Source of the DNA: Artemia franciscana
Taxonomy: Eukaryota; Arthropoda; Branchiopoda; Anostraca; Artemiidae
Length of the DNA: 64,000 nucleotides
NCBI RefSeq assembly: GCF_032884065.1
Contig: NC_088873.1
Span: 7,451,702-7,515,701, forward strand
Reading direction: 5' to 3'
Every line of letters starts with the position of its first letter. The stretch's first letter is position 1. Positions 3,974 through 50,338 of this stretch are shown one piece after another. A program made the translations under genes and the position numbers. Under the pieces are notes generated by a model, which did no database searches, was not told the origin of the DNA, and was given only the letters and a program-made list of their open reading frames with translations.

Positions 3974-4212
3974 CTATTTGTGCGCCGTGTCTTCATTACC
4001 GACGATTTTCAAGATATGATGCCCAATTACTTGAATTTCATCCGTGGCATTGTTGATTCTGATGATTTACCACTCAACGTCTCCCGTGAAACTCTTCAAC
4101 AGCACAAGCTTATCAAAGTTATTAAAAAGAAGCTGATCAGGAAAGCTTTGGATATGATGAAGAAAATGGATAAGGAAGACTATAAGAAGTTTTGGGCTGA
4201 ATATTCCACCAA
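3974..4212 (+). CDS. HSP90B1: GRP94/endoplasmin exon, middle domain with catalytic Arg loop
   Basis: This is the first GRP94 exon in the window. GRP94 is the ER-lumen HSP90 that uses ATP to fold secreted and membrane clients such as integrins and Toll-like receptors. The exon starts after TTTTTAAG with [20 protein letters not shown] and includes [14 protein letters not shown]; the Arg in SRE matches the catalytic middle-domain Arg of HSP90s. It ends at WAEYST plus AA, followed by donor GTAAGT. The phase is right for the next exon, where AA joins C to give Asn. All earlier exons (signal peptide, N-terminal ATPase) lie upstream of the window. Codons are intact and the sequence is very close to other metazoan GRP94s. 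Confidence 0.97.
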
Positions 4213-5905: not shown

Positions 5906-6077
5906 CCTCAAGCTAGGAGTCATTGAAGATTCATCAAACCGTTCTCGTCTTGCCAAGCTCCTTATGTTCCGCTCATCCTCATCCAAGGGTGAATTTGTTT
6001 CACTTGCTGAATATGTTGAAAGAATGAAAGAAAAGCAACAAGCTATCTACTATATTGCTGGAGGATCTCTTGATGAG
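5906..6077 (+). CDS. HSP90B1: GRP94 exon, end of middle domain
   Basis: The acceptor TTTCTTTTTAG precedes CCTCAAGCTAGG; the first base completes the Asn codon carried over from the exon ending at 4212. It encodes LKLGVIEDSSNRSRLAKLL, then SLAEYVERMKEKQQAIYYIA, and ends GGSLDE before donor GTATAT. The IED-N-R-RLAKLL and YVERMKEKQ blocks are typical of GRP94. The open frame continues in phase with the exon at 11491. Confidence 0.97.
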
Positions 6078-11490: not shown

Positions 11491-11730
11491 GTTGAAACAA
11501 GTCCGTTCGTTGAGCGACTTATTAAGAAGGGGTATGAAGTTCTGTATTTGACCGAAGCTGTTGATGAATATTGCATTGGTGCATTGCCTGAATTTGAAGG
11601 GAAGAAATTTCAGAACGTTGCCAAAGAAGGTGTTGTCCTGGATGATGAATCAGCTGAAAAACAAGAGGCTTTGAAAGCTAAGTTTGAACCGTTGACTAAA
11701 TGGCTTTCTGATGAAGCACTTAAGGATCAT
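11491..11730 (+). CDS. HSP90B1: GRP94 exon, middle to C-terminal domain junction
   Basis: The acceptor TCTTCTAG precedes GTTGAAACAAGTCCG. The 80 codons encode [40 protein letters not shown] and end [12 protein letters not shown] at donor GTAAGT, phase 0. The SPFVERL-KKGYEV-YLTE-VDEYC block is diagnostic for GRP94. It can splice to either of two alternative next exons, at 15078 or 16447, both starting in phase 0. Its last 30 bases and donor are echoed three more times in the intron just downstream. Confidence 0.97.
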
Positions 11731-12320
11731 GTAAGTTGTTAGAGTTTAACTTTTTTTTAGTGCATTGCATTTAGAAGCAGACAGTTTGATCTAAAAAGGC
11801 TTTTGGATGAAGTACTGAAAGACCTGAAGGTTTGCTGATGAAGTACTGAAAGATCTGAAGGCTTTCTGAAATATGGCTTTCGGATGAAGTACTTAAGGAT
11901 CATGTTAGTTGTTATGGTTTAATGGGTTGTTTTTTGCGAAGTGTATTTAGATGCAGACAGTTTGATCAAAAAAGGCTTTCTGATGAAGTACTGAAAGGTA
12001 TGAAGGTCTTCTGATGAAGTACTGAAAGATCTGAAGGCTTTTTGAAATATGGCTTTTGGATGAAATACTTAAGAATCATGTTAGTTGTTACGGTTTAATG
12101 GTTTTTTTTGTGCATTGCATTTAGATGCAGACAGTTTGATCAAAAAAGGTTTTCTGATAAAATACTGAAAGATCTGAAGGTCTTCTGATGAAGTATTGAA
12201 AGATCTGAAGGCTTTCTGAAATATGGCTTTTGGATGAAGTACTTAAGGATCATGTTAGTTGTTACGGTTTAATTTTTTTTTTCGTGAAGCGTATTTAGAT
12301 GCAGAGAGTTTGATTAAAAA
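11731..12320 (+). repeat. 175-bp tandem array derived from the 3' end of the preceding exon and its donor
   Basis: The exon end TGGCTTTCTGATGAAGCACT (from 11701) with its donor recurs at 11874, 12050 and 12224, offsets 173, 176 and 174. Each copy reads like TGGCTTTTGGATGAAGTACT, then TTAAGGATCATGTTAGTTGT, so the donor GTAAGT has become GTTAGT. Each unit also holds shorter internal echoes (GATGAAGTACTGAAAGATCT) and a shared block with ATTTAGATGCAGACAGTTTG. The array clearly grew from the exon edge, because the exon copy is the conserved coding one. Confidence 0.85.
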
Positions 12321-12354: not shown

Positions 12355-14200
12355 TCAAACAGTTTGTGGTAACGAACTCTAAGGAGCGACCCGGCTCAAT
12401 AGTAACCGAAACTTAAAAAACGGAATTTTAATACCAATAGATAGACCAAAGAATTGGCTTAATATGGTGATTCCTAATATAAAAGTTTCATTAAGTTTAA
12501 AAAACTGAGTTTTGATACCAGTAGATACATCAAAAGAACCGCATTTGCATGCTCCACGTATGCGTATTTATTTATTATTATTTTTTTCCCCAGGGGTTAT
12601 CGTATCGACCCAGTTTGTCCTAGAATGTTGCGAGAGAGCTCATTCGAACAGAAATTAAAAGCTCTAGTGCCCTTCTTAAGTGACCAAAAATTGAGCGGAA
12701 CTAGACCCCCCCCCCACGCTTATTCCATTCAGTATAGTCGAAAATCTAATAGCTATGTCTTTGAGGACGACTTAATCACCCACAGTCCTGGGGGGAGAGT
12801 TCTGCAAGTTATCAACTTTGCCCATTGTTTACGTATAGAATTCAATTCAATTTATTTATAGCCCATCTTTTACAAAAAGAGGGCGAAACGCCCTTAAGAT
12901 GGAGTAAAAAAAAAAAGCTATAAATAAATACAAATCAAATCAACATCAAGAGACAATCAAATAAATAATGCAGACCAAGGATGAGATACTATCGACATAG
13001 ATAGAACGAAAATCATGTAGCCTTTTATCAATAACAAATATAGGCGAAACTAGGCGGAACTTATTCATTAAGTAACTTTTTCTGGTCCAACAAGGGTAAC
13101 TGAGAAGGAATTTAGCATAACGAAAAAATACTCTACGAACAAATAGTTTCTGAGGTTCACTAAAAAACTGCCAAACTGGACAAAGAGAGAGGAGATGAGG
13201 TACAACTAGGCTATTATATATTTTTGCGAGATTTAATTTATTAATTTGTTTAATATTAGACACAATTGAAGCATAAGCAGTTCTCAGTTTTTTCTTCAAA
13301 TTTTCAAGCAATAATTTCTCAGTTTCTTTCAAATTTTTTCCAATAGGAATTCCAAGGTAAACTAATTTTTGGGAAAGAGGGACTTGAGCATTAGCTAAAG
13401 ATAAAAAAGAAGGGCCATTTGTCTCTTAAATGTCTCTAAAACTGAAAGTTATAACAATAGTTTGAAAGAAAGAAATTGAAAAGAAAGAAAGCTTTCTATT
13501 GAAAGAAAGCTTAATGTCTTCATATTCATTATAAAGCCGATAAAACGCGTTTTCACATCCACTAAAAGTACGGCTTAAATTCAAAACGTCATCTGCAAAT
13601 ACCATTAATGACAAATTAAATCCACAGTAAGTACAACTAAAATTAACAGAATTTTGGGCATGTAAAACAGAGTTATTAAATAAAGACGGTGATGTAAGGC
13701 CTCCTTTCAAAATATCAAAAAAAGATCCCTCATTTAATTTCGCCTTAAGGTGATGGTACATATACAGAAGGCATTTGTTTATTGGGAAGCATACAGACGT
13801 TTATATGGGGAGATTTTTTCTGGTGGGATGGGAAGGGGTTGCTTGGGAGGTTCTTTCCATGGGGAAGAGAATTTTTTTATGAAGGAGGTGCCGGATTTCC
13901 CAGCATTATTTAAAAAAGATCAGAAATTAAATAAAAAACAAGTTTTTTCAACTGAAAGTAAGGAGCAACATTAAAACTTTAAAGGAACATAAATTATTAC
14001 ATGTATGAGGAGATTCGCCCCCTCGTCAATACCTCGCTATTTACGCTAAAGTTTTTTTTAGTACTTTCACAGAGCTATTTATTCTAATTAAACGGTCTTT
14101 GTGATTCAGGGATCATTCTTAAAGAACTGGAACAAAATTCGAACTTTAGTGTAAAGAGCTAGGTATTGAAAAGGGGGTGAATCCCCCCCCCCTCTTCTGC
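12355..14200 (+). mobile_element. Family A repeat, interrupted by a LINE
   Basis: It starts TCAAACAGTTTGTGGTAACG, a slightly decayed form of the 20-nt hairpin head CAGTTCGTGGTAACGAACTG seen in sister copies, then GGAGCGACCCGGCTCAATAG. The body runs to about 12840 and resumes at about 13750 (GTTTATTGGGAAGCATACAG) after a minus-strand LINE insertion. The palindromic tail begins AACTGAAAGTAAGGAGCAAC near 13950 and its second arm decays after about 14180. No coding frame is conserved among copies, so it is a non-autonomous element. Confidence 0.75.
12843..13750 (-). pseudogene. Non-LTR retrotransposon RT fragment nested in a family A repeat
   Basis: Reading minus from 13750, the frame gives KGGLTSPSLFNNSV (RT motif B) and MVFADDVLNLSRTF (motif C). 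After frame breaks it continues GIPIGKNLKETEKLLLENLK and SLVVPHLLSLCPVW. The 3' end near 12843-12930 has GAGGGCGAAACGCCC and an A run. This is the same family as 1290-1990. Frame breaks near 13420 and 13330 and the lack of an endonuclease show it is dead. The junctions split a family A element whose two halves align across it. Confidence 0.8.
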
Positions 14201-15077: not shown

Positions 15078-15214
15078 ATATTAAGAGCGACAATATCGAG
15101 CGTTCTTAGTGACTCCCCGTGTGCACTTGTTGCCTCCAGATGGGGTTGGACTGGTAACATGGAACGCATTGCCACATCAAACGCTCATCAAAAACAAAAC
15201 GATGTGCAAAGAGA
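15078..15214 (+). CDS. HSP90B1: GRP94 alternative exon, candidate mutually exclusive partner of 16447-16583
   Basis: Acceptor TTTTGTAG and donor GTAAGA bound a 137-nt frame with no stop: ILRATISSVLSDSPCALVAS, RWGWTGNMERIATSNAHQKQ, NDVQR plus GA. The exon at 16447 is also 137 nt, with the same phases, the same split GA codon and about 27 of 46 identical residues. The segment opens the C-terminal domain; its NMERI block aligns with the reported mammalian GRP94 client-contact Met658/Met662. Using both exons gives GAA TCT TAA; using neither gives a stop 14 codons into the next exon. Either exon alone keeps the frame. Selection on the protein is evident because no disabling change is seen. Whether it is expressed is unknown. 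Confidence 0.85.
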
Positions 15215-16446
15215 GTAAGAATCGCTGAGTGTTATTTGATATGCTTGGTTTGGTTTTGTCTTCTTCTCGCTTAGTCCATGAGTGTCGCTGTTTAGCTTAT
15301 TCAGCCTTAAAAAAAACAAAAAAAAAAAAAAAACTAAATGAACATAACGAAATAAAAAGATCCAAAATGGGGTTTTTCAAGGCCAAATGAAATTTTGAAT
15401 TTTAATTTTGTGCAAATCGCGGATATTGGCGAATAACACTTGTTGTTAGGTATTTGATTTTATTTCTTTTTTTTTGGTCTTTTATTTAATTTTATTTAAT
15501 TTTTTGGTGTTTTTTTTTTCATTGGTTTTGTTTTACTTTCCGCGTTTGTTTTTTGCTTTTTCCTTGATCTTATTATTTTGTTCGCGCTGAAGAAGGGAGG
15601 AGATTGTTCTCTCGAAATATTCGCTTTCTGTGTTTTCTTGAGTATTTTCGTTTGGCCTTTAAAACCCCATTTTGATCGTTTTTAAAACCCCATTTAAAAA
15701 ACCCCATATTGATCGTAGGCCAGTGTAGTTTAAGAAATTACCTACTCCTTGAACAGACTACTAGAGCCAAACAAGGCATAATTTCGTCAATTTTACTTTC
15801 TTAATTCTTCTGTTTATTTCTTGTCAGTCATTCCCCTTTCCTTCCCCCCTCTCCCAATGATATTCTTTCATTTTATTATTATTAAAACGGTGATAAATTG
15901 AAGATTAATTGGGTATATATAAGCTATAGAGGCTTTATCGGGGCTGATAGGTAGTTTCAGTGTTTATGCAAAGGTAGGTTCTTGACATTTATGTGTTTGG
16001 TTTGTCAATATCTATGAATTAGCACACTAAATTGCATTCGGGTACATTCGGGTATTGCATAAGATACCATTCGAGTATCCTAAATGGGTAGCGGAAGGAG
16101 TACTTAAATCGCAGCCCTAAATAGTTAAGTTTCAGGAGCTTTGTATAAAATTTTGTCTTTTTTGAGCTCAGACTGAAAACGCACACATTTAGATAATGAA
16201 TGGAGGGCGGCAAACAGTACGAAGCATGTTTGGCAACAGAGAAAAATCATCTTGTTAAAATAGGGCTAAGTTTTTATAATGCTTAACTTGCCTAGTTTGT
16301 TATCAGGCAGACTAAATATTGTTTATCATCATGTTATCAGATTTGCTTAAAAGCATTTTTCTGTTTTCCTAGTTTGTCGTGTTACTTTTTTGTTTGTTTG
16401 AGTCATTGTTTGTGCTTTTGGCTTTACTGTGTTGTCTTTGCTTTAG
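15215..16446. other. Intron between the two alternative GRP94 exons
   Basis: AT-rich sequence with poly-A (15308-15332) and poly-T tracts. An AAAACCCCATTTTGATCG motif is repeated near 15660-15712. No other gene or recognised element is present. At 1.2 kb it is one of the shorter introns in the gene. Confidence 0.5.
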
Positions 16447-16583
16447 ATCTTAAAAGCTGAAGTTGGCGACCGTTTGACCTCTACCCCATGCGCCTTAGTT
16501 GCTTCTAAATATGGTTGGACGGCAAACATGCAGAGGATTATTACAGCCCAGACTCATTCAAAGACTAACGACGTTCAAAGAGA
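16447..16583 (+). CDS. HSP90B1: GRP94 alternative exon, start of C-terminal domain
   Basis: Acceptor TGCTTTAG precedes ATCTTAAAAGCTGAAG. It encodes ILKAEVGDRLTSTPCALVAS, KYGWTANMQRIITAQTHSKT, NDVQR plus GA before donor GTGAGT. The split codon is completed by C of the exon at 18996 (GAC, Asp). Its GWTANM block resembles cytosolic HSP90s, while the 15078 version (GWTGNMERI) is closer to the usual GRP94 form. Human Met662 aligns with Ile here and with Ala in the 15078 version. Which form is the major one cannot be told from DNA. Confidence 0.93.
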
Positions 16584-17390
16584 GTGAGTATCAAGCATCA
16601 TTCCTCTCTTTGTGCGTTTTATTGAGGAATGGTGTTAACTTTAGTTCACTGGGAATAGGCCGAATTTTCTTGATTTAGTAGGAAATAATTACTTCCCTGT
16701 TCCGTCATGATTGCAGCACCACCTACAACCTAGTAAAGAACGAACTCCAGTAAAAAAAATTAAATGTGTTTTGAAAGAAATTGTAAAGTGAAGAAGAATC
16801 TCTGTTGGCAACTGATTCAGGTTCAAGTAACTGAAACTATTATTTGGTAAGCAATCTTACCAAATTTCTTGGCCTACCAAATTTTTTTGGACTAGTCTTA
16901 ATAGCAAAAGTCTAATTCGAAAAAGTTATACGAATTTTGAAAAACAGCCTTAAACCCCCTGAAGATGGTGTCAGATCAAAATGAAAGCTACACCATTGGA
17001 ATCATCATGGTTGGAAATCCTACGTAGGAGGGTTTCCTACGTAATCATCAAAATCATCGAAAACCCTACGCAGGAGAATTACGATCCCCCATTTTGAGTA
17101 ACAAGGAAAATTACTACCGCATGGGAAGCGGTGATGTTTATGTTTTTTTTATCTTCAACTTAAGGAATGGTAGGGGCTTGCTTCTGTAGCTGTTGTATTT
17201 AAAACAGCTACATACCATTGCTCTACTACTACACACACCATGCTCTACTACTACCATTTACTGTTTAAGGAATTGCCGCTTACTAATGCAGTAACTGACA
17301 GAAGGAATGACGCTTTCTTAATATAACCGTTTTATTTTCGTGTGCTATACATTCACAATGGTGTGAGGATTGGAACATCGGGTGTGGAGG
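16584..17390. other. GRP94 intron with an old foldback-family fragment
   Basis: From about 16810 to 17110 the sequence resembles part of the 33.2-34.5 kb foldback element: GATTCAGG, then TACACCATTGGAATCATCAT, then repeated CCTACGTAGG/CCCTACGCAGG pieces. CCTACGTAGG at about 17021 is itself palindromic. Nothing else is seen. Confidence 0.45.
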
Positions 17391-17458
17391 CTAGCTGACA
17401 CTCCACGTGTTGCTGTGGCGTGCAGCGCCACAGCAACACGTGGCAGGGGTCAGCTAGT
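17391..17458. repeat. GC-rich inverted repeat with 18-bp perfect arms
   Basis: Arms CCACGTGTTGCTGTGGCG (17403-17420) and CGCCACAGCAACACGTGG (17426-17443) are exact reverse complements around a 5-nt loop. Outer segments CTAGCTGAC (17391-17399) and GTCAGCTAG (17450-17458) pair as well. It sits at the left edge of the first copy of a 279-bp direct repeat. Confidence 0.85.
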
Positions 17459-18236
17459 ATCACATAAAGAAAGCTTGTAAACCTAAAATTGCTTTCTAAA
17501 CCTAAAACTGCAATGAGAGAAGAATCTAGTTTTTGATCTATACACTCACCTCAAGGCCTTTAGACCCAAACTTGTCTTGTTTTGGGAACAATTACAAGTC
17601 AACAGCTTGACATACTTTTAGCAATGCAAGGTCTTCTTGAATGAAGCGACAGACATGTCGCTTCCGAAAGAGCTTGTTTCGCCCATCCGAAAGAGCTTGT
17701 ATTGCTAGATTCTAAATTGATTTAGAATAGGCTTAATAACATAACCGAATACAACACGTAAGAAAATAAAGATGTAAAATATCGAACATTACTTATAGTC
17801 TGAAAAAAAAGTGAAAAGATAGAGCATAAAGAAAAAAATTTCAGACAAACGTAAAAGTTTAAGTCAAAGCTTGACTAAAAGTCTGCGTCAAACCAAAAAC
17901 AAACATATGAAACAGAAGAGTAAAGGCAGGTGGCAGGGAGTAAAGGCAGGGATCAGGCGTGGCAGGGGTCAGCTAGTATCTCATAAAGAAAGCTTGTAAA
18001 CCTAAAATTGCTTTCTGAACCTAAAACTACAATGAGAGAAAAATCTAGTTTTTGATCTATACACTCACCTCAAGGCCTTTAGACCCAAACTTGTCTTGTT
18101 TGTGGAACAATTACAAGTTAACAGCTTGACACGCTTTCACCAATGCAAGGTCTTCTTGAATGAAGTGACAGACATGTCGCTTCCGAAAGAGCTTGTTTCG
18201 CCCATCCGAAAGAGCTTGTATTGCTAGATTCTAAAT
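17439..18236. repeat. 279-bp direct repeat pair (17439-17717 and 17958-18236)
   Basis: Both copies run from CGTGGCAGGGGTCAGCTAG to TTGCTAGATTCTAAAT with a constant offset of 519 bp and only about ten differences by eye. The near identity means a recent segmental duplication in the GRP94 intron. The second copy lacks the left arm of the GC-rich hairpin that borders the first. Confidence 0.9.
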
Positions 18237-18995: not shown

Positions 18996-19129
18996 CTATT
19001 ACCTCTCGCAGAAGAAGACATTGGAAATCAATCCTAGACACCCTCTCATTAAAGAGCTTCTCAAGCGAGTTGAAGATAACCCAAGTGATCCAGTAGCAAA
19101 AGATTCTGCCCTGATGATGTTCAGAACAG
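18996..19129 (+). CDS. HSP90B1: GRP94 exon, C-terminal domain
   Basis: Acceptor TTTTTCGTAG precedes CTATTACCTCTCG. It encodes YYLSQKKTLEINPRHPLIKE, LLKRVEDNPSDPVAKDSALM, MFRT plus G before donor GTAAGT. The QKKT-EINPRHPLI block is the HSP90-family C-terminal signature. It splices in phase to the exon at 20892 (G plus CC, Ala). Confidence 0.97.
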
Positions 19130-20891: not shown

Positions 20892-20992
20892 CCACATTGC
20901 GTTCTGGTTACATGCTGAAGGACACACTTGATTTCGCCAAATCCATTGAGGCTATGATGAAGCAAACCTTAGGAATATCACCAGAGGAACAG
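20892..20992 (+). CDS. HSP90B1: GRP94 exon, C-terminal dimerisation region
   Basis: Acceptor CTCTGTAG precedes CCACATTGCG. It encodes ATLRSGYMLKDTLDFAKSIE, then AMMKQTLGISPEEQ, ending at donor GTATTA, phase 0. ATLRSGY is highly conserved in GRP94; these helices form the C-terminal dimer interface of HSP90s. Confidence 0.97.
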
Positions 20993-25954: not shown

Positions 25955-26056
25955 ATTGAAGAAGAGGAAGAAGAAGAAGTTGAAGGAACAAAAGAAGAGA
26001 TAGAGGAGGACGCAGAAGAGGATGAATCTAAATCCGAAGATCACGATGAATTGTGA
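25955..26056 (+). CDS. HSP90B1: GRP94 final exon, acidic tail with HDEL
   Basis: The acceptor follows a poly-T tract and TTTAAG. It encodes IEEEEEEEVEGTKEEIEEDA, EEDESKSEDHDEL and stop TGA. The Glu/Asp-rich low-affinity calcium-binding tail followed by an ER-retrieval tetrapeptide is the GRP94 hallmark. The tetrapeptide is HDEL, a known variant of the KDEL usual in animals. The tail is shorter than the vertebrate one. Confidence 0.96.
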   Translation: MEEEEEEEVEGTKEEIEEDAEEDESKSEDHDEL

Positions 26057-48460: not shown

Positions 48461-48724
48461 AAATCACACGAAGGTCTCACTCAAGACAATCAGAGTTTCC
48501 TGTCTGAAGTTGTCCGGGACAAGTATGTCGGCCAGTCTTTTCCACCCCCAGAAGCTGAGCCATTGCCCTTGATTCGTGTAACTGGCAGCCCTTTGAAGGG
48601 AGTCCCTGCTAAAGCTGTTGAGTGGACGCCACGGACCTTCCGTGCAGGTTTAATTGCCAGAAATATTGGAGTATACCCTTTGTATAATAAGGATGGGAGA
48701 AAAGTAATGACCACCTTATTACAG
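48461..48724 (+). CDS. MRPL3: MRPL3 exon, N-terminal third
   Basis: Acceptor TTGTTTAG is followed by 88 codons encoding SFLSEVVRDKYVGQSFPPPE, VEWTPRTFRAGLIARNIGVY and PLYNKDGRKVMTTLLQ, then donor GTAGGA, phase 0. The W-P-TFR-GLIA-N-G--PL--KDG----TLLQ pattern is diagnostic of mitochondrial uL3. It joins in frame to the exon at 52007. Confidence 0.95.
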
Positions 48725-50338
48725 GTAGGATTTTTTCATCCTTATTTGCGTTTGTTGAGTGATTCTATGAATTGTTTCATCAACAATGAAATAATCTCGC
48801 TTTTATTTAGAACAGAATATAGAATAGAATTTAATTTAAAAATTTCTTTCACAGCATTGTTGCCAAATTTGAATTTCGCGTCACAAATAGCGCTAGAACA
48901 TATGTACCATATTGATTTTTTTTTTCATCGCTGATGTTCACGGCAGTACAAAGTAGGATAGGATAAGATGTTTATATATCTTATAAGATAAGATATTATA
49001 TAGGGTAGGAAAAGATCTCTATCACAAGCCCTCAAAGGGCCGAATTCGGACTTCGGAGTCAACATAATACATGGTTGCACTAACAATGCAAAAAACAACA
49101 AAGATAAATAGAAATCATAATGAATAGTCAATTATGAGTCAATAAAGTACGTAATAACATGAGTCCAAACTTAGTTAAAAAATCAAAAAAACAAAAATAG
49201 AATTAATGATTAGTTTCCTTGGCTATTATACAATTCAACAAAACTTGGGAGAAAATTTGTCCGATATCGTTCACACTTACCAGGGACGGATTCAATTTAG
49301 GCTGATGAATTTAAACAAAATCAATTAATAAGCATAGTGAAAATTGTCAATTACAATCCGGAATCCCAAACAAAGGGTGAAAGTTGGTGCTGGGTAGGGG
49401 AGGGCAGTACTCCCGTTTTGGCATTGTTTTGCCCCTCTAGATCTAGTTTTGTCCCCCTATTTTCGTTTTCCTTCTCTAACAGTTTCAAGAATAAACAGGG
49501 TTTATGATTATATTGATGATCATTATTATATCATTTTTTTTTGTTACGCGGCTTGTTATCCATACAATACAAATTGCTTACTTCTCGTTTTAGCTTTATT
49601 TTTACCATCTTTACTTTTTACTATCTTTAACATTTGTGCTACTCACCTCACTTTCGGCTGTTTGCTCGAAAATGAGTATGCCTTTCTCTAGTTTAGAATT
49701 TATGTCAATACACTTAAACCATAGCAAAAGTAAGCAAACACAGCAGCGACATCTATCTTATTTAGAAGAGAATTTTTGCTAAGGTCCTAAGTACCTTCTT
49801 CGTACAAATCCTGATCATTTTTAGAGTTAGAAATGTAAATGAAATAAGAAAAAACATGAGGATAAAACTTTTGTTATGGTTGTTTGTTTTAGATTTCGGA
49901 GAAAAAATTAAAATTTTTTTGTTTTCTCAACAACTTCAAAGAGATACAAATTTGTAGCTTTTTCTGTCTACTAGAGACATTTTTAGTAATTTCTTGGTGC
50001 TTTCTCTAGTTCCTAGTGTAATGCTTTTCCGTTATGCTTCTGCTAATAGCTATAGCCATCTACGAAGTCGAAACTCTTACTTCATAAATAATCAGTTTCT
50101 TAATAATACAATATAGATTCTCAAAGGCGAGTAATTCTGGAACTTCTTATTATTAGAGTGATTTTAAATGATATAAACTAGAGAACTGTCAAATGGATGA
50201 CCCCAAAAAATTATATTCAATAATCACTTGACGTTAATGACATTAATTACGTGACCTGTGTTCTATATTATTTTAACTTACCAACCGTCCAAACTTACCA
50301 ACGGTCCTTGTATAAAGAAACTGTTTATATTAGTGAAT
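48725..50338. other. MRPL3 intron with a reversed CR1-like LINE tail
   Basis: About 48950-49090 on the minus strand matches the 3' tail of the LINE at 2863-3815 (GAATTCGGCCCTTTGAGG, then TATCTTATCTTATAAG). From 49150 to 50338 nothing is recognised; the short T-rich open frame at 49449 shows no motif. Confidence 0.6.

Follow-up and report, generated by a model that had tools for sequence, protein, structure and literature searches.

Several systems have been described in which one of two adjacent homologous exons is used in each transcript, and this kind of gene structure, the tandem duplicated exon substitution, is well known and often ancient (PMC9741552; PMC2655722). In human, a set of 236 such events has been described, the two exons differing by conservative changes (PMC9741552). 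Another example is arthropod N-cadherin, an adhesion receptor whose mutually exclusive exon pairs have been kept for more than 400 million years in arthropods, and for one of these pairs it is reported that either isoform rescued the mutant (PMC2655722).

In mammalian GRP94/gp96, the client-binding domain has been placed at residues 652-678, where the motif GWXGNMER is needed for interaction with Toll receptors (PMC4868323), and Met658 and Met662 are required for integrins but not for Toll receptors (PMC7465916). The available text of these two papers does not mention an alternative version of this domain. The choice of clients by GRP94 is poorly understood, and, up to the date of the review, purification and analysis of a GRP94-substrate complex had not been achieved (PMC7465916). 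Gene duplications of cytoplasmic Hsp90 have been the topic of one study (PMC3774752); in another, Hsp90 is among the shrimp genes with several splice events, and endoplasmin and GRP94 are absent from its main text (PMC6752684). In Artemia, grp94 is reported to be up-regulated under high salinity (PMC8406910). No description of an alternative client-binding exon in GRP94 was found in the open-access literature, as covered by titles, the starts of abstracts and top-ranked matches.

Here, we describe two exons, A and B, of the Artemia franciscana GRP94 gene, which are very probably tandem-duplicated and alternatively used. This is like the human events in that the exons are adjacent and homologous, apparently with one used per transcript, old, and different by conservative changes; as opposed to those events, for which the main text of the study does not contain the words HSP90 or chaperone (PMC9741552), and to the N-cadherin adhesion receptor (PMC2655722), the gene here encodes an ER chaperone, and what is exchanged is its reported client-binding domain.

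The GRP94 gene of Artemia franciscana and its exon pair

The GRP94 (endoplasmin, HSP90B1) gene lies on the forward strand, begins upstream of the window (the whole stretch of 64,000 nucleotides that was analysed) and runs to an HDEL stop, ending at 26056; with its introns it spans more than 42 kb. For each isoform 13 coding exons were assembled, the assembly starting at DELLKREE and leaving out more N-terminal residues. The exons and their surroundings are as follows.

3974..4212, + strand: constitutive GRP94 coding exon (LFVRRVF...YST)
5906..6077, + strand: constitutive GRP94 coding exon (LKLGVIED...GGSLDE)
11491..11730, + strand: constitutive GRP94 coding exon directly 5' of the alternative pair, phase 0 at its end
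15078..15214, + strand: alternative exon A (GWTGNMERIATSNAHQK), entered in phase 0 and left in phase 2, with pyrimidines at 9 of the 17 positions preceding its acceptor
16447..16583, + strand: alternative exon B (GWTANMQRIITAQTHSK), entered in phase 0 and left in phase 2, with pyrimidines at 13 of the 17 positions preceding its acceptor
18996..19129, + strand: constitutive GRP94 coding exon directly 3' of the alternative pair (YYLSQKKTLEINPRHPL...)
20892..20992, + strand: constitutive GRP94 coding exon (ATLRSGYMLKD...)
25955..26056, + strand: last GRP94 coding exon, with HDEL (ER retention signal) and stop at its end

Membership in the HSP90 family is given by PF00183 scores of 722 bits for P0003 and 724 bits for P0123, the Artemia protein with exon A and the matching one with exon B, respectively. 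When the C-terminal exons are joined, their four best PDB matches are all endoplasmin, and the protein ends in ...KSEDHDEL, with the acidic C-terminal tail and ER retention signal by which GRP94 is recognised.

Exons A and B are neighbouring homologous exons that agree in length (137 nt each), phase and splice type; both are open and have AG/GT borders, which read ttttgtag before and gtaaga after exon A, and gctttag before and gtgagt after exon B. Identical residues are encoded by 26 of their 45 whole codons (or 27 of 46 when the split codon, which they share, is counted), and 82 of 137 nucleotides are identical, with 28, 32 and 20 of 45 matching at codon positions 1, 2 and 3. When either A alone or B alone is spliced between 11730 and 18996, the frame remains open to the HDEL stop and encodes 738 residues. 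When both are included the frame reads ...QRES and meets an early stop, and when both are skipped it reads LLPLAEEDIGNQS and stops at the 14th codon, so that, as in a mutually exclusive pair, the frame is kept by one exon alone and broken by both or neither. A sequence-only reading of this DNA had named the two 137-nt AG/GT exons, their phases (0 in, 2 out), their roughly 27 of 46 identical residues and the outcome of including both, one or neither, and recomputation gave the same result on each point.

The differences between A and B are concentrated at synonymous sites (pS 0.71, pN 0.32), with 32.7 of 103.5 non-synonymous sites changed versus 22.3 of 31.5 synonymous sites (Fisher p 1.4e-4). 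When one copy was allowed to drift neutrally, in simulation, until it reached the observed nucleotide identity, the 26 identical residues were kept in 0 of 20000 runs from either start. About 18% of the drifted copies were still open, which makes an open reading frame alone weak evidence. The resemblance between A and B exceeds chance.

A third copy was not found by tblastn across the assembled GRP94 gene region, where A and B were the only copies. In the whole genome (1.27 Gb, 6468 contigs), the best candidates for an exon-A query were exons A and B, the exon that follows them and, on contig C2, three HSP90 loci; taken together with a PF00183 search, the best candidates outside GRP94 were these three loci, another HSP90-like gene (on C3) and a fragment on C10. 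We take the C2 genes to be cytosolic HSP90s and the C3 gene to be TRAP1-like. No retrocopy showing a spliced form was among the best genome candidates scored with PF00183 and exon A. When the A and B regions were compared by blastn, the best match joined 15184-15223 to 16553-16592, that is, the 3' ends of the exons with their donors (80% over 41 nt), and nothing convincing was found in the introns beyond these; therefore, the duplication is not recent.

Other features of the window were also observed. At 11700-12320, a 174-nt tandem array of 3.6 copies repeats the last codons and the donor of exon 11491-11730, its later copies reading WLSDEVLKDH, WLLDEILKNH and WLLDEVLKDH; two copies (ends 11903 and 12253) have an altered donor, GTTAGT, and the array copies might act as decoy 5' splice sites before the switch is reached. 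In the intron before exon A, open frames on the reverse strand at 12946-13800 resemble by eye pieces of a non-LTR retrotransposon reverse transcriptase, and a Pfam search of these frames returned no family. Between exon B and exon 18996 there is a direct intron repeat of 279 nt with 95.7% identity (17439-17717 and 17958-18236). Outside the gene, an open frame of 157 residues on the forward strand at 48461-48934, for which a Pfam search returned no family, presumably resembles mitochondrial ribosomal protein L3.

Isoforms carrying exon A or exon B

GRP94 isoforms are already in public databases as X1 and X2. In Artemia, exon B is carried by a transcript-type contig, and exon A only by an NCBI isoform model. 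The latter, P0003 ('endoplasmin-like isoform X2 [Artemia franciscana]'), is a gene model with the exact exon A. The contig matching Artemia, P0123, has the exact exon B within an 805-residue ORF on 2625 nt, and apart from the exon it departs from P0003 in an N-terminal extension of 20 residues and in K346R and E782G (alignment columns). Because the gene with its introns is so much longer than 2625 nt, this contig must derive from spliced RNA; its source tag presumably denotes an assembly of public reads.

A similar pair is seen in the crayfish Cherax quadricarinatus, where P0101 (A-type) and P0156 (B-type) are identical at 1-623 and 668-682, and the differences lie within 624-667, which corresponds to this exon, and at the truncated end of P0101, in its final three residues. 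Among the database names, B-type proteins of decapods are called isoform X1 in Penaeus japonicus, Macrobrachium, Palaemon and Homarus and X2 in Procambarus, and A-type proteins are called X2 in Penaeus vannamei and X1 in Cherax. In the sea spider Nymphon striatum, a pycnogonid (subphylum Chelicerata), the endoplasmin model P0242 contains an A-type copy at 634-678 followed by a B-type copy at 687-731, joined by ETKCLKFQ. This bridge is probably a prediction artefact caused by an exon pair: since reading from A into B breaks the frame, the model would have used a putative cryptic acceptor upstream of the true one, as judged from the protein alone.

Distribution and age of the two exon types

Homologues were taken from the best 120 of 783 matches to exon A within the joined GRP94 protein, the best 120 of 277 to exon B and the best 120 of 2367 to a vertebrate-type exon, which was placed in the Artemia frame as a probe for other arthropods; these lists are redundant, with many near-copies. 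The organisms named among the listed exon-B matches are all crustacean (Lynceus, Penaeus japonicus, Macrobrachium, Palaemon, Homarus, Cherax, Meganyctiphanes, Procambarus and Tigriopus), and those named among the listed exon-A matches are insects, Artemia and three decapods, which suggests that, among the matches listed, B is absent from insects and A from copepods. With the vertebrate-type probe the top match was Nymphon striatum, the remaining named matches being vertebrate. Both types recur in decapods and in the Nymphon gene model, the comparison with related species that the sequence-only reading had called for, and the exon pair is old and common to other arthropods, which that reading had not foreseen.

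The two types are separated by fixed residues. Among 36 exon rows, the human columns 659/665/666 read E-N-A in 15/15 A rows, Q-Q-T in 17/17 B rows and E-Q-A in 4/4 vertebrate rows; the A and B labels come from the search list (for Nymphon, from the order of the copies), by which the Glu/Gln column is partly circular and the other two less so. At exon column 5 the states never overlap either, yet this column is variable within A. Over 359 homologues (360 stretches, Nymphon counting twice), E-N-A was found in 120, Q-Q-T in 93 and E-Q-A in 119, with no mixed triplet in the 332 motif-bearing stretches; the other 28 of the 360, which lack the exact motif, are B-like and read NMQK.

In a tree of the exon, one branch (86/75) keeps all A rows on the same side and another (89/91) does so for all B rows; these values are not starred because the exon has only 45 columns. 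In a tree of the protein upstream of the exon, A and B rows group instead by species or genus, with those of Artemia, Cherax and Penaeus each together. Since the exons cluster according to their type and the upstream protein according to species, the duplication precedes the split between branchiopods and decapods. A single clade of decapod A and B (10 rows) was rejected (p 2.35e-12), one of Artemia A and B was borderline (p 0.045), and holding Nymphon A and B together was not rejected (p 0.187). Of the 45 residues of Artemia A, 30-34 are identical in 13 other A rows, 28 in Nymphon A and 25-28 in the B rows; for Artemia B the counts are 31-38 in the other B rows, 28 in Nymphon B and 22-26 in the A rows. 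Nymphon A is not placed by identity alone, as its 28 of 45 residues shared with Artemia A are equalled by the nearest B rows, at up to 28. With this one species as the basis, it is likely that the duplication also precedes the split from Chelicerata, and perhaps it predates crown arthropods; the sea-spider pair could be a separate duplication. As to the 3' end of the exon, Artemia A ends in NDVQR as B does, decapod and insect A end otherwise, and Nymphon A ends in EDVQR; local gene conversion or retention of the ancestral state are possible sources of the shared end in Artemia.

Two other explanations of the pair have to be weighed against this. Exon B could be the only one used in Artemia, with exon A an ageing relic that is still annotated, as the poorer acceptor of A (9/17 versus 13/17 pyrimidines), its longer tree branch (0.23 versus 0.15), its departures from the common A type (RLSD to VLSD, MFGW to RWGW) and the presence of B in the transcript-type sequence P0123 might indicate. 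However, the acceptor of one constitutive exon in this gene is just as poor, and exon A is open, retains consensus splice sites, phase and the diagnostic A residues, is present in an NCBI isoform, and holds the identities with 13 A-type rows and Nymphon A given above; neutral drift was as conserved in none of the 20000 runs. We consider it most improbable that exon A is a relic. It is also very unlikely that the exon was duplicated independently in several arthropod lineages and that the copies converged. The long branches of both Nymphon copies, the test in which they could be held together and the failure of identity to bring Nymphon A nearer to Artemia A than to the nearest B rows are consistent with such convergence, but the same three diagnostic residues split A from B in Nymphon, Artemia and decapods, the A-then-B order is common to Nymphon and Artemia, and one clade of A and B is rejected for decapods and borderline for Artemia. 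An old pair of alternatively used exons remains the preferred reading.

A putative switch in the client-binding domain

The Met of NM is residue 659 in bat GRP94, which has 804 residues; if human GRP94 has 803 residues, as we take it to have, this Met corresponds to Met658. On this numbering, which the 652-678 domain is assumed to share, exon columns 1-45 and the split codon correspond to human residues 631-676, so that the client-binding domain, 27 residues long, has 25 of them in the exon. The likeness to the mammalian domain (PMC4868323; PMC7465916) includes GWxGNMER and Met658, as opposed to Met662, which is kept by neither arthropod type. A-type stretches read GWTGNMER in 120/120 cases, and B-type stretches read GWx[GA]NMQ[RK], with Gln replacing Glu. 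At residue 662, Met is found in 119/119 vertebrate stretches, Ala in 119/120 A stretches, and Ile (86) or Val (7) in the 93 B stretches. The sequence-only reading was correct in giving Ile for Met662 in exon B and Ala in exon A of Artemia; the loss is not peculiar to Artemia, since the Ala is found in nearly all A-type stretches, and most named ones are insect. Its further proposal, that two GRP94 isoforms differ in their client-binding face, is supported at the sequence level by the Artemia X2 model with A and the matching contig with B, by the Cherax pair that differs at this exon, and by the share of the domain that is exchanged. When isoform A (P0003) and isoform B (P0123) were modelled with AlphaFold from 21-row alignments, mean pLDDT was 49.9 and 55.4, respectively, and below 50 over the exon, which is too poor to support a fold search or a structural claim.

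In the proposed mechanism, the spliceosome would pick one exon per transcript, and nonsense-mediated decay would remove the wrong products with both or neither exon. Through this choice those 25 residues would be exchanged, such that isoform A would retain the GWxGNMER motif tied to Toll-receptor binding and isoform B would have Gln for the Glu of the motif together with altered residues after it. As for how exclusivity might be enforced, a steric block is unlikely, the intron between the two exons (15215-16446) being 1232 nt, and a U12/U2 mismatch is unsupported, the donors GTAAGA and GTGAGT both being U2-like. No RNA pairing that might enforce exclusivity stands out among 15 pairs of Artemia intron regions, each compared with 20 crude two-base-block shuffles: one pair lay below 20/20 shuffles, two were reached by 2/20 and 12 by at least 10/20. 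The sole pair below all 20 joins the repeat array after exon 11491-11730 to the region upstream of exon A. From the acceptor pyrimidines of one genome, our guess is that B is the default and A the regulated choice, with the limit that, as noted, one constitutive GRP94 exon also has 9/17.

Apparently, one Artemia GRP94 gene can give rise to two chaperones with different grips, and isoforms A and B would probably favour different secretory or membrane clients. An alternative is that A and B differ in expression only, by tissue or stage, and that the proteins are equivalent, which would contradict the switch of clients and not the exon pair. The N-cadherin pairs of arthropods offer a precedent, being conserved and, for one of them, exchangeable in rescue (PMC2655722), but the residues that separate A from B are fixed, type-specific and, in distant lineages, inside the reported client-binding domain. 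We regard equivalence of the two proteins as somewhat unlikely, and favour a difference in clients.

The unusual interest of this pair comes from the swapped piece being the reported client-binding domain and from the pair seeming to reach early arthropods. Two versions of this stretch kept in one gene are ready-made swap constructs for the residues that set specificity, and splicing may be a control layer of the secretory pathway in shrimp, crayfish and brine shrimp. We tentatively propose, without placing even chances on it, that the last ancestor common to all living arthropods had a two-state GRP94 with a swappable client-binding cassette, of which both states were kept in branchiopods, decapods and sea spiders, A only in insects and B only in copepods. 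If this is true, the single-state lineages would be natural material for mapping the state needed by each client, Toll receptors and integrins among them.
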